A stretch of DNA of 46,448 bases from Vulcanimicrobiota bacterium (lineage in GTDB: Bacteria > Vulcanimicrobiota > JAJTBE01): positions 1 to 46,448 of the forward strand of contig JAIORV010000049.1 of NCBI GenBank assembly GCA_021107945.1, read 5' to 3'. The translations under genes were made by a program, and so were the position numbers. The notes under the pieces are model-generated. The model had not been told where the DNA came from, did no database searches, and saw only the letters and a program-made list of their open reading frames with translations. Shown here in pieces: positions 38,806-42,748 of this stretch; within the stretch, counting starts at the first letter, position 1; each line of letters begins with the position of its first letter.

Positions 38806-39165
38806 GGTTTTTCCTCCCTGCCAAATGTCTCAATAATAAAAAAAATCCCTGAAACTTGCTCACATATTCTAATATAAAAGGATAGTACTGTCAAGTGATT
38901 ATGTGATTTTTTCCATGTTAATTTGCTTTATTTGTATATATTCACCGCAAAGACCACAAAGACCACAGAGTTTTTTTGTAGGAGGGATGTCCCCATCCCG
39001 ATAATATTCCTTATGTAATCCTTCATTATCAGCAATTATCATAAAAATATGCCATGTATTCATTTCGAAAATACAGATAAAAAGGATGAAGAAAAGGAAT
39101 TTTCCACTCGTGGAATAATTCTGGTTATAGAATTTACTTATTTATTAATGAATATGGAGGGAAAT
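38806..39165. other. Divergent intergenic region of rplM and the Ntn-hydrolase gene
   Basis: The gap contains a CACCGCAAAGACCACAAAG-type element (38941-38970), the 28-base palindrome copy (38977-39004) and an AT-rich stretch in which an upstream in-frame ATG (39049) is not used, as I judge. A promoter cannot be assigned. Confidence 0.65.
38977..39004 (+). repeat. 28-base palindromic element, copy 6
   Basis: Stem GGGATG/CATCCC around TCCC: the same compensatory pair as in copy 3. It is directly preceded by the CACCGCAAAGACCACAAAG-type element, as in copy 3. Confidence 0.9.
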
Positions 39166-40254
39166 ATGACGGTAGTCAGCGCGATGAAATTCAACTTCCA
39201 CCAGGGAGCGCTTGTATGCGACGAGCAAACGACATTCGGAGACAATAGATATGCATATCTATCGGATAAAATAAAGCCTTTGATTCCACCGGAAGTGACT
39301 GAAAGAACCGGCATGGTTGCTGCATACGGAGGATCGGGGACACAGTCGGTTGCGGCGGAAGTAGTGAAGAAAACCTATGGAGAGATGTTGCAGGCGGCTG
39401 AAGATATAAAACCGTTCTCGCATAAGAGTTATATGTTCAGAACCATTGAAGATGTTGCCCGCTTTTCCATGAAAAAGCTTCTTGAAGTGAAACATCACCA
39501 TCTCAATGATAAGCTCTATTCCAATTTTCACTTCAACATGGACGACTTTAACCGGGGTTATTATGAGCTTGATGGTGAAAGATATGATATCAAACAGGAT
39601 AATGTAATCGAGAAAGCTACCGAATATATCACCTGGAAAGATTACCAGCCTGACGTGGATTCAATATTCAAGAATAGAGCTATCGTAGCGGGCTTTGACC
39701 CCACAAGCGGATTTGAGATTTATAGCCTGTCCCTGATGGACAATGAATGCTTTTTTAGCGGGGGTCTTTATGAGAGTATCGGTTCGGGAGCCGACATTGC
39801 TTCTATAAGTCTCAATGATTTTATCAACACCAAAGTATTGAGCATCAGGAGAACAAAGATTGATCCCACCGAGGGTGTAGTTGAGCTGATTCGTGCCACA
39901 AACGCTTGCGCCAGGAGAAATTATGGTGTGGGCGGATATTTCAATATAGTTCTCATCGATGGGCGGAAATCCCCTGAAAAAGCATACACGGAAATAATGG
40001 ATCACAGCGCCCGTCTTGCCTCGGAGATTGTCTTTGCCGGCGGATACGAGTTAATCGATCATAATGATATGATGACTTTGATTAACAAGCTTGTATTTAA
40101 AGGCGTGCCTTTTGCTGATGTTGATTCTGAATTTTGTAAGATGGCAAAAGATACGAAGAAATTGAGTTTACTTCTCAGGGGATATAAATTAGAGCGACTT
40201 TTCAACAATAACGGCAAGGATGAGAAGACAGATGAAGATTCTGGTTGCTGTTAA
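39166..40254 (+). CDS. Proteasome-like Ntn hydrolase, single chain
   Basis: A 362-residue cytoplasmic protein whose N-terminal third resembles proteasome beta-type (Anbu/HslV-like) subunits. Starting from ATG 39166 (GGAGGG upstream) it begins MTVVSAMKF, so removal of Met would leave Thr1 as the nucleophile, with Asp18 (VCDEQTTFG) and Lys34 (LSDKIKPL) near the places of the proteasomal Asp17 and Lys33. Later, IVAGFDPTSGFEIYSL and GSGADIASISLNDF match the beta-subunit core. A 40-residue longer reading from 39049 would block Thr1. It is longer than known Anbu or HslV (about 180-280), so the C-terminal part may be a separate domain. It overlaps the Usp gene by 23 bases. Confidence 0.7.
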   Translation: MTVVSAMKFNFHQGALVCDEQTTFGDNRYAYLSDKIKPLIPPEVTERTGMVAAYGGSGTQSVAAEVVKKTYGEMLQAAEDIKPFSHKSYMFRTIEDVARFSMKKLLEVKHHHLNDKLYSNFHFNMDDFNRGYYELDGERYDIKQDNVIEKATEYITWKDYQPDVDSIFKNRAIVAGFDPTSGFEIYSLSLMDNECFFSGGLYESIGSGADIASISLNDFINTKVLSIRRTKIDPTEGVVELIRATNACARRNYGVGGYFNIVLIDGRKSPEKAYTEIMDHSARLASEIVFAGGYELIDHNDMMTLINKLVFKGVPFADVDSEFCKMAKDTKKLSLLLRGYKLERLFNNNGKDEKTDEDSGCC

Positions 40255-40657
40255 CGAAGATGATTATTCAAAAGAATTGATAAAAACTGGAGCGACACTT
40301 TCATCACAGTTTCGCTCCGAGCTTTATATTGTCTATGTTTATGAGGTCCCCCTCGCATTACCTCTCGATTCCGACTCACCGGAAGAAATCGAGAAAGGAG
40401 ACAGGATCCTCGATTTTGCTTCCGGCATTGCAGATGAAGCAGGAATATCTGCGCAAACGGATATCATCCAGGCAAGGACGGTGGGGGCGGGAATTGTAAA
40501 TGAAGCCAGAGATCTCGGTGTAGATTTGCTAATAATCGGCATGAAGAAGTATCCGGGGCATGGAGAAAACATAATCAGCAGAACTGTTGATTATGTGATG
40601 AAAAAAACTCCCTGCCGGGTAATGCTGATGAGAAGAGGAGAGAGCGATGGGGAATAA
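40232..40657 (+). CDS. Universal stress protein (UspA family)
   Basis: A 141-residue protein beginning MKILVAVNEDDYSKELIK, with the alternating strand-helix core and an end VMKKTPCRVMLMRRG typical of Usp proteins. The ATP-binding motif G-2x-G-9x-G(S/T) is not clear: the segment reads GMKKYPGHGENIISRT, so it is perhaps a non-ATP-binding subclass. I chose ATG 40232 over 40220 for spacing to AAGGA. Overlap with the Ntn-hydrolase gene predicts co-expression. Confidence 0.88.
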   Translation: MKILVAVNEDDYSKELIKTGATLSSQFRSELYIVYVYEVPLALPLDSDSPEEIEKGDRILDFASGIADEAGISAQTDIIQARTVGAGIVNEARDLGVDLLIIGMKKYPGHGENIISRTVDYVMKKTPCRVMLMRRGESDGE

Positions 40658-40894
40658 GGAATATTGCTTCTGAGGAAATTAGGAAAATGTATAGTAGGTG
40701 CCAGATCACGGAAAGCGGATGATGGAGAATTGATGGCGGAACTGTAGGAGGGACGTCCTCGTCCCGATAAACGGATGACGGAGGTCGGATGAGAGTATAT
40801 CGAAATAACAAATGTTCACTACAAAGACTTGAAGATCGAGAAGAATTAATAGTCAAGAAAACTCCGTGCCCTCTGTGGTAATTATATATTAACA
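40658..40894. repeat. Gap with purine-rich block and palindrome copy
   Basis: Bases 40660-40740 are AGGAAATTAGGAAAATG- and GCGGATGATGGAG-type sequence, 40743-40770 the 28-base palindrome, and 40815-40880 a foldback pair (CACTACAAAGACTTGAAG; GTGCCCTCTGTGG). Confidence 0.8.
40743..40770 (+). repeat. 28-base palindromic element, copy 7
   Basis: Stem GGGACG/CGTCCC with loop TCCT; same flanks. Confidence 0.9.
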
Positions 40895-42748
40895 ATGAAC
40901 AATAAAGATCAACAAAAAAATAAAAAACAGTCCGAACAGCCTGAACCGGAGTATATCTCCGGGACTCTTCCCGGCGACAAGTCCATCAGAAAACGTCGGG
41001 AACGTCCTGCATCCCTCAAGAGAACTCTGGGGGTAATGGGTATATTCAGCATTGCTTACGGCAACCTGGGTTCGTCCATTTACTATGCCCTGGGAGTTAC
41101 CGCCCTTTTTGCGATGGGAGCGACTCCTTTCGTGTTTATGCTGGCGGCGCTTTTCTTTATATTTACGGCGGCGTCATATGCGGAGGGAACCGCAGCGATC
41201 CCTGAAGCGGGAGGATCTTCCAGCTTTGCAAGGAAAGCGTTTAACGAGTTCGTGAGTTTTATCGCAGGATGGTGCCTCTTACTGGGATATGTGGTAATTA
41301 TCGCTATCGCATCATTTACCGCGATAAACTACCTCGGTCACCTGCCCCATTTCTCATACCTGGCCACAAAACCCTGGAAGATCGTTGGAACGGGAGCTCT
41401 ACTCCTGATTCTCATGCTTATAAATATCATAGGAACCCGTGAATCCGCTGTTTTCTCGACGGTCTTCACAATTATAGACATTGCCACCCAGTCTTTTCTC
41501 GTTATTATAGGGCTCTTTCTTTTTCTCAATATGCCCAAGATGATAGATAGAATACACCTGGGCGTCGTCCCAACATGGAATCAGTTGATCATCAGCTTTT
41601 ACATTGTGATGATATCATTTACGGGAATCGAAACGATTTCAAATCTTGCGGAGGAGTCCAGGGAGCCAGGCTCTACAGTTCCACGGTCGATATGGTGGTC
41701 TATGGGTGTTGTACTTGTGATGTTTTTCCTGATTTCATCAGTTGCACTTTCCGCGATGCCCGTGGAATACAGAGCTGAGGGTTATATCTATACAATGTCT
41801 AAAGTGGCGGATGAGAATGTGGATGTGGAAGAATTGAATCCGACACAGAAACTTATTTATTATAAGGATGTTAAAGACAGTCCCCCTGGTTTTCCCGTTA
41901 ATAATGTCACGGTAAAAGTAACACAATTGATTCCACTGTCGGATAATAATTCAAGTCCTGGAACATGGAGAACCTGGACTGATGAAAACGGGAAATTTGA
42001 AATAAGGGGAATAGCTTTTGGCAAACATTCTTTCAAGCTCTTTAAAAAAGGCTATGTCGCCAAAGAATTTACATTTGACACATCAAAACCAAAAACAGTC
42101 CCTATAAAAGGGCAATGGACAACCGATCTCACTCGAAAATGGGAAAATGATCCTGTTTCCGGAATCGCCTCGGCAATATCGAAAAAACTCCCCATAATGA
42201 AAGAGCCTCTTGAAACATGGGTAGCCATCGTCGCATTTACCATCATGGTCATCGCCGCCAATGCAGGTATCATGGCAGTATCCAGGCTGATTTACTCGAT
42301 GGGCTCAAATAACCAGGTTCCCCCCATACTTGCAAAAGTAACGAAAAAATCCAGATCGCCTTATGTGGCAATAATTATATTTTCCGCAGTGGCGTTCATA
42401 ATCACTCTTCCGGGGGATCTTGAGAAACTCACACAGGTTTATGCCTTTTCCGCGCTCATATCATACACAATTGCACATGTGTCGATAATTGCCATGAGGA
42501 TAAAGTTCCCCGACATGGAAAGGCCTTACAAAATACCTTTCAACATCAGGATAAAAGGGAAAGAGATCCCCATCTCGGCAATAATCGGCGGACTCGTCTG
42601 CTTCAGCATATGGCTCATAGCGGCATTTTACCGTGATTACGGGAGAAATGTGGGTATCCTGTTTATTCTGTCGGGAATACTGATATATTGGCTCTACCGC
42701 AGGCATAAGGGATTGTCACTTACGGAGACGAAGAAGAAAAGGAAGTAG
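40895..42748 (+). CDS. APC-superfamily amino-acid permease with an inserted beta-sandwich domain
   Basis: A 617-residue transporter of the amino acid-polyamine-organocation superfamily with about 12 membrane segments (the first signature is GVMGIFSIAYGNLGSSIYYALG near 46). Between the segment ending ALSAMPVEYRAEGY (about 296) and the DDPV-like NDPVSGIASAI loop (about 418) lie about 110 extra residues. Their core, VNNVTVKVTQ, TWRTWTDENGKFEIRGIAFG and KHSFKLFKKGYVAKEF, looks like a carboxypeptidase-regulatory or Cna-B-type beta sandwich, placed on the outer side of the membrane by the loop's position. The rest matches a normal permease (AANAGIMAVSRLIYSMG). The ATG has only AT-rich sequence upstream. 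The substrate is unknown. Confidence 0.88.
   Translation: MNNKDQQKNKKQSEQPEPEYISGTLPGDKSIRKRRERPASLKRTLGVMGIFSIAYGNLGSSIYYALGVTALFAMGATPFVFMLAALFFIFTAASYAEGTAAIPEAGGSSSFARKAFNEFVSFIAGWCLLLGYVVIIAIASFTAINYLGHLPHFSYLATKPWKIVGTGALLLILMLINIIGTRESAVFSTVFTIIDIATQSFLVIIGLFLFLNMPKMIDRIHLGVVPTWNQLIISFYIVMISFTGIETISNLAEESREPGSTVPRSIWWSMGVVLVMFFLISSVALSAMPVEYRAEGYIYTMSKVADENVDVEELNPTQKLIYYKDVKDSPPGFPVNNVTVKVTQLIPLSDNNSSPGTWRTWTDENGKFEIRGIAFGKHSFKLFKKGYVAKEFTFDTSKPKTVPIKGQWTTDLTRKWENDPVSGIASAISKKLPIMKEPLETWVAIVAFTIMVIAANAGIMAVSRLIYSMGSNNQVPPILAKVTKKSRSPYVAIIIFSAVAFIITLPGDLEKLTQVYAFSALISYTIAHVSIIAMRIKFPDMERPYKIPFNIRIKGKEIPISAIIGGLVCFSIWLIAAFYRDYGRNVGILFILSGILIYWLYRRHKGLSLTETKKKRK

Follow-up and report, generated by a model that had tools for sequence, protein, structure and literature searches.

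A putative proteasome-like hydrolase gene from a Vulcanimicrobiota bacterium belongs to a family of paired catalytic and pseudo-subunits

The window analyzed here is a stretch of 46,448 nucleotides from a Vulcanimicrobiota bacterium (assembly GCA_021107945.1, contig JAIORV010000049.1, forward strand), and it carries a gene for a protein of 362 residues that overlaps a gene for a universal stress protein (Usp). Its product is probably the catalytic member of a proteasome-like family of N-terminal nucleophile (Ntn) hydrolases that mostly act as a two-subunit complex, the second subunit being a homolog without the catalytic residues, here called the pseudo-subunit. Computation gave the predicted fold, the residue pattern, the gene pairing and the co-diversification of the two subunits, and from these we infer their co-assembly, a peptidase activity, a substrate and a role for the pseudo-subunit. 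The family has no Pfam or NCBIfam name.

The window protein has the predicted fold of a proteasome beta subunit. AlphaFold2 models were obtained for it (pLDDT 86.2, pTM 0.84) and for the pseudo-subunit at L032:4552-5595 (pLDDT 88.0, pTM 0.86; genomes and loci carry our own G and L handles), and among the matches listed the best PDB matches of both were all proteasome or Anbu chains. Foldseek matched the window model to proteasome subunits and Anbu at E-values down to 2e-9. VIA-align gave Z 24.1 (rmsd 2.9 over 200 residues) for this model and Z 22.9 (rmsd 2.5 over 195 residues) for the pseudo-subunit, and in many rows residue 2 of the window model aligned with the first residue of mature beta-subunit chains. 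Phage HslV-like proteins were the top matches in a viral structure library. The original prediction, made from the DNA letters, had proposed a proteasome-superfamily enzyme, and the structural match to Ntn hydrolases that this implies was found, at 8-20% identity to proteasome chains in the structural alignments.

The 64 full-length distinct members fell into two classes. Both Thr2 and Lys35 were present in 34, which defines the catalytic class, and both were missing from the other 30; no member was mixed. Loss of Thr2 from orthologues had been set beforehand as the observation that would speak against the enzyme, and the residue was kept throughout the catalytic class. Asp19 was kept in all 64 members, whereas Ser207, which lies in a GSG motif and corresponds to proteasome Ser129, was found in 34/34 catalytic members and in 2/30 pseudo-subunits. 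The original prediction had named Asp18 and Lys34; counted with Thr as residue 1 this is right, and counted from Met the two are D19 and K35, invariant in the 34 catalytic homologs. Candidates for the oxyanion-hole Gly47, judged by their stretch of the sequence, were G55 (31/34) and G58 (34/34) of this class. In the pseudo-subunits Thr was replaced by Ala (18), Gly (7) or Ser (5). Their N-terminus, M[AGS]xV, ran straight into the first strand (the L006 copy is three residues longer) and the N-terminal helical extension of the proteasome alpha type was absent, which is why we call them pseudo-subunits and not alpha subunits.

Several points weigh against this reading of the window gene. The sequence evidence for this kinship was weak or marginal. 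Alone, the window protein had no match at E <=1 in either Pfam or NCBIfam, nor one at E 10 in PDB, so the original prediction had done well to recognize the enzyme by its motif. Searched against PDB, the family profiles A1 (31/31 matches to proteasome, best E 0.028), A8 of catalytic members (21/27, best E 0.084) and A9 of pseudo-subunits (18/28, best E 0.0029) gave sub-threshold or marginal matches; profile A5 matched pyrin only, and hhalign of A5 with a small HslV/Prc alignment found no match (probability 1.1). PF00227 matched 2 of the 34 catalytic members (best E 0.02) without passing its cut-off, and in the genome searches no family site scored above 15.7 bits, where the cut-off is 22.4. 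The NCBIfam HslV models gave no match to the window protein and single matches among 23 members at E 0.019 (TIGR03692) and 0.043, while phrog_1040, annotated as peptidase HslV family, matched 6 of 23 (best E 1.2e-4). Both AlphaFold2 models were built on the same 23-sequence alignment, and all family copies come from genomes or metagenome-assembled genomes (MAGs) without a named organism. By our own position assignment, the proteasome Ser169 position was V, I or C in 34/34 catalytic members and the Asp166 position was N in 21, D in 5, T in 4, E in 2 and V in 2. Proteasome beta subunits have Asp166 and Ser169. The parts of PMC8665760 at hand do not name these two residues as defining. Because kinship at the sequence level is marginal, the superfamily claim rests on the fold together with the residue pattern; together with the profile searches, these support the superfamily branch that had been proposed, as one without a Pfam or NCBIfam model.

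The two classes were encoded side by side. Counting truncated copies, every one of the 32 pseudo-subunit genes had a catalytic gene directly downstream, with 15 junctions sharing 4 bases, 3 sharing 1 base and a largest gap of 99 bases. Conversely, 32 of the 35 catalytic genes followed a pseudo-subunit gene, one came behind another catalytic gene in a triple (L094), and two, the window gene and the copy at L033, were solo. The description of the enzyme as single-chain did not hold for the family. In the triple (L094:5701-8937), one pseudo-subunit gene precedes two different catalytic genes that overlap by 4 bases.

The partners also diversified together. The pseudo-subunit and catalytic distance matrices of 29 pairs correlated at r = 0.911, which none of 5000 shuffles reached (highest 0.354). 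Because shared species history could produce this value, shuffling within genomes was added: for 20 pairs from seven multi-pair genomes r was 0.867, compared with a shuffle mean of 0.12 (0/5000), indicating that partners stay faithful even among paralogs of one cell. This co-diversification suggests a physical partnership of pseudo-subunit and catalytic subunit. In the tree the window gene split off first among the catalytic genes (support 0.993 for their clade and 0.943 for the rest), and under the provisional root set by the script the pseudo-subunits did not form a clade.

In the mechanism we propose, removal of the start Met would expose Thr2 of the catalytic subunit, which, with Lys35 and Asp19, would attack an amide bond within an oligomer that also contains the pseudo-subunit. 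This second subunit, from the gene just upstream, has the same predicted fold but lacks Thr1, Lys33 and, in most cases, Ser129 (proteasome numbering). Catalytic subunit and pseudo-subunit probably co-assemble into a ring or a related oligomer, where the pseudo-subunit may serve as scaffold or substrate guide, and the oligomer may cut peptides or unfolded proteins, or one specific substrate. The window copy, solo and the deepest of the catalytic branches, may work alone as a homomer or with pseudo-subunits encoded elsewhere in its genome.

A more specialized function was also considered, in which the complex is a specific protein ligase, amidase or processing peptidase (compare the connectase ligase) tuned by the insertion, the pseudo-subunit and the operon context. 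Subfamilies do sit in differing metabolic contexts. Five genomes have the pair flanked by a cyclase-family gene (kynurenine-formamidase-like) and a kynureninase gene, with an FAD monooxygenase-like gene next in line, and at 3 loci the pair follows a gene from an M20-peptidase cluster (Pfam was run on one). The copy number, which reaches 9 in a genome, suggests specialized substrates, no conserved AAA+ neighbor was seen, and among the matches listed no third gene was conserved across the whole family, the neighbors varying by subfamily. Against this idea, the first helix pair is present here but missing from connectase, whose insert lies between S3 and S4, and any substrate is conjectural. We regard this function as unlikely compared with a proteasome-like two-subunit hydrolase. 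Kinase-domain proteins with beta-propeller repeats were observed near three pairs in two genomes (L006:4080-6074, L032:7324-11103 and L035:2728-4761).

The original prediction had further proposed a stress-linked regulator and had named the taxonomic spread of the hydrolase-Usp pair as a point to check. The window Usp matched PF00582 at E 1.8e-15, and the overlap of 23 bases reported for it was confirmed if Usp starts at the inner ATG 40232; from ATG 40220 the overlap is 35 bases. In a blastp search against all open reading frames of 35 sources (33 distinct sites), this Usp matched only itself, so that Usp adjoined only the window copy, 1 of the 34 full-length catalytic genes. On this result a conserved hydrolase-Usp pair was rejected. 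Regulation of the hydrolase by Usp would rest on one overlap that is seen only here and is not conserved. A solo homo-oligomeric hydrolase controlled by a co-transcribed Usp would account for the window gene, which has no pseudo-subunit neighbor and, as the deepest catalytic branch, need not have lost a partner recently. Usp stands beside no other family member searched, and the second solo copy, at L033, has an open reading frame with a transposase domain upstream and no Usp; we judge this arrangement very unlikely.

Fuchs, Alva and Lupas described 22 novel proteasome homologs in 2021, without informative genomic contexts or AAA+ partners (PMC8665760), and the family could be one of these clusters, likeliest PHI or a PMI, in which case only the pseudo-subunit pairing would be new. 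A table of that study assigns PMI-1, 2, 4 and 6 to bacteria, Bacteroidetes among them. PHI is likewise a distant proteasome homolog with an insertion at the same site, after H1/H2; in the window model the helices and hairpin at 125-168 come after the helix 94-121, a PHI-like site. The links of PHI to the proteasome clusters are described as among the tightest, yet PF00227 barely matches the present family. PMI-2 to PMI-6 carry an insertion between H3 and H4, whereas the window model has helices at 209-221, 225-230 and 234-251, with just the short helix 225-230 and no long insertion. The words 'tandem' and 'paralog' do not occur in the main text of PMC8665760, and the parts of it at hand, compared by description only, report no pseudo-subunit pairing for PHI or PMI. 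We consider membership in a known cluster possible but less probable than not. The parts seen of two citing papers (PMC10936438 and PMC13022661) added nothing further on the topic, and no description of a catalytic and pseudo-subunit pair outside the 20S proteasome was found in the open-licence literature, which does not prove its absence.

The family was further compared with the characterized systems. With the 20S proteasome (Psm alpha/beta; PrcA/PrcB) it shares the fold, the Thr1-Asp17-Lys33-Ser129 pattern and two homologous subunits, one of them catalytically dead. It differs in having no propeptide, an insertion after H2 and added C-terminal helices, and its dead subunit, unlike alpha, has no N-terminal helical gate extension; Pup, Mpa or PafA was seen adjoining family genes at none of the loci examined. 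HslV is a bacterial Thr-nucleophile subunit of the same superfamily, but the family protein is about twice as long, no HslU gene lies beside the window gene and the curated HslV models are nearly silent on it. Anbu, the top Foldseek match of the window model, likewise has no propeptide. Its operon holds transglutaminase, ATP-grasp and Alpha-E genes and one subunit type, and the window gene has no such gene for a neighbor. Connectase shares distant proteasome homology, Thr1 and the missing propeptide; it is restricted to methanogenic archaea, has a two-helix S3/S4 insert and lacks the first helix pair that the window model keeps at 60-79 and 94-121.

The reading frame of the window gene runs from ATG 39166 through 362 codons to TAA 40252-40254 and begins MTVVSAMKF. 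Alternative starts at 39049, 39148 and 39154 have no motif like the GGAGGG found 4 nt before ATG 39166, and because of this motif just upstream the start at 39166 was favored. The proposed Met-Thr start without a propeptide was upheld by this frame and motif, and so were the length, greater than that of Anbu or HslV (HslV is about half as long), and the lack of an adjacent partner ATPase: among the open reading frames of the window, searched with Pfam, no ATPase, HslU included, adjoins the hydrolase gene. Thr directly after Met is not unusual in itself. According to the parts of PMC5666114 at hand, Anbu has no propeptide and its catalytic Thr becomes free once the start Met is cleaved off. Among all the homologs, propeptides occur only in most proteasome beta subunits and in HslV (PMC8665760).

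HslU was examined as a possible partner. Among the 16 family genomes, a PF00227 match over the cut-off was present in 12 and HslU over the cut-off in 14. HslU as a general partner of the family was not supported, and most of these genomes have HslV itself. Four genomes of the CSSED10-310 clade (G155, G157, G158 and G159) had HslU and no PF00227 match over the cut-off. The gene order in G151 is dprA, topA, xerC, hslV, hslU and a lipoprotein gene (names from sequence), and the loci of the four genomes keep this order minus hslV between xerC and hslU, L139 starting within xerC. Walker A, Walker B and the GYVG pore loop are intact in their HslUs, and the tail has changed from ...LSRYIL to ...EN[IV]RKKxKxGF. 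Of 48 HslUs examined, 43 end in [YF][IV]L and 5 are altered: those of the four genomes and that of G165, which has no family member and whose altered tail is unrelated to the other four.

No HslV was found in the fetched flank of any of the 5 altered-tail HslUs, in a limited search with a profile of two sequences (2 of eleven loci passing the motif filter); for the four CSSED10-310 genomes the absence is backed by the Pfam search. HslV was also absent from the flank in 8 normal-tail genomes (G000, G160, G173, G177, G183, G185, G207 and G211), and in G000, the only one of the 8 checked genome-wide, it lies on another contig. The C-terminal tail of HslU activates HslV, according to the parts of PMC4106860 at hand. 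Because an altered tail also occurs in G165 without the family, a link between HslU and the family is a hypothesis only. The tail change is more easily read as a mark of HslV loss than as proof of a new partner, and the altered-tail HslU is a speculative candidate partner of the family in the CSSED10-310 genomes. The widest picture seems to us quite unlikely as a whole: a two-subunit machine, separate from the 20S proteasome, where almost all live subunits co-evolve with their own dead sisters and which, in HslV-less CSSED10-310, is fed by an HslU whose HslV-docking tail has given way to a new conserved one (EN-I/V-RKK-x-K-x-GF). In G156 (labelled CSSED10-310 through L036), a cluster at L142:607-4106 reads as Pup, PrcB, PrcA and PafA; both Prc genes are over the PF00227 cut-off, Pup and PafA were named from sequence, and on this short contig contamination is possible.

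In total, 68 gene copies (fragments included) were found in 16 genomes. The alignment of 64 excluded the truncated L036 pseudo-subunit, L098 catalytic and L106 pseudo-subunit genes as well as four duplicates (L091 = L029, L095 = L034), and the fragment G159:C355 lies outside the fetched regions. The genome of the window (G000) has five copies, namely the solo window gene and two tandem pairs on other contigs, and in its phylum the family occurred in 2/149 genomes. A first scan of genome contigs, before profile A2, gave no match; with A2, 12 loci were found, in MAGs whose labels read Bacteroidetes, Ignavibacteria, candidate division CSSED10-310, 'bacterium' and Bacillota. Whole-genome searches were positive for 7/60 relatives of G155, 7/79 relatives of G149 and 7/79 relatives of G161, the last seven being identical to those among the G155 relatives, and for 1/296 genomes sampled from the phylum of G149. 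Tandem pairs reach four per genome. No family member was found in a plasmid search, in viral contigs scanned once with A2 or in phages searched with a homolog from G003.

The origin of the dead alpha and live beta subunits of the proteasome is an open question, and a bacterial family of live and dead pairs without an alpha-type gate would offer an independent case for comparison. The paralogous pairs could be expressed and mixed to ask what a pseudo-subunit does, and an orphan HslU with a replaced tail would be a test case for a change of partner by an unfoldase.

The coordinates of the features are collected in Table 1. In the model secondary structure, the insertion at about residues 122-170 consists of a helix, a beta hairpin and two helices.

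Table 1. Features of the hydrolase-Usp unit in the window, and loci of two recurrent contexts
Feature	Position or locus	Strand	Basis
Catalytic-type proteasome-like subunit, 362 aa (P0001), putative	39166..40254	+	Frame, AlphaFold2 model, structural match, family alignment
Codon of Thr2 in P0001	39169-39171	+	
Codon of Asp19 in P0001	39220-39222	+	
Codon of Lys35 in P0001	39268-39270	+	
Codon of Ser207 in P0001	39784-39786	+	
Shine-Dalgarno-like GGAGGG ahead of ATG 39166	39156..39161	+	Direct sequence reading
Insertion from helix H2 to next core strand, ~residues 122-170	39529..39675	+	Model compared with layout in PMC8665760
C-terminal helical extension, ~residues 280-341, conserved LRGYK at end	40003..40188	+	Model and alignment
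Universal stress protein (PF00582)	40232..40657	+	Pfam; 23-base overlap with hydrolase; alternative upstream ATG 40220
Cyclase/kynureninase context	L027:4107-10542, L028, L031, L109, L110		Pfam on L027 proteins alone: PF04199, PF22580
HslU genes with new tail and no hslV at xerC-hslU junction	L136, L137, L138, L139, against L144		

The neighbors of the window gene are rpsI/rplM-type ribosomal genes (named from sequence), Usp, a permease gene and a Na/H exchanger gene. On either side of the hydrolase-Usp unit, at 38978-39004 and 40744-40770, stands a 27-base repeat that could fold into a hairpin. This repeat had 260 exact matches in its own genome compared with 0 for the reversed control, and it resembles a dispersed repeat of the REP type. 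In the amino-acid permease (40895-42748), an unusual insertion at residues 326-399, which is CarboxypepD_reg-like, splits the matches to the permease profile.
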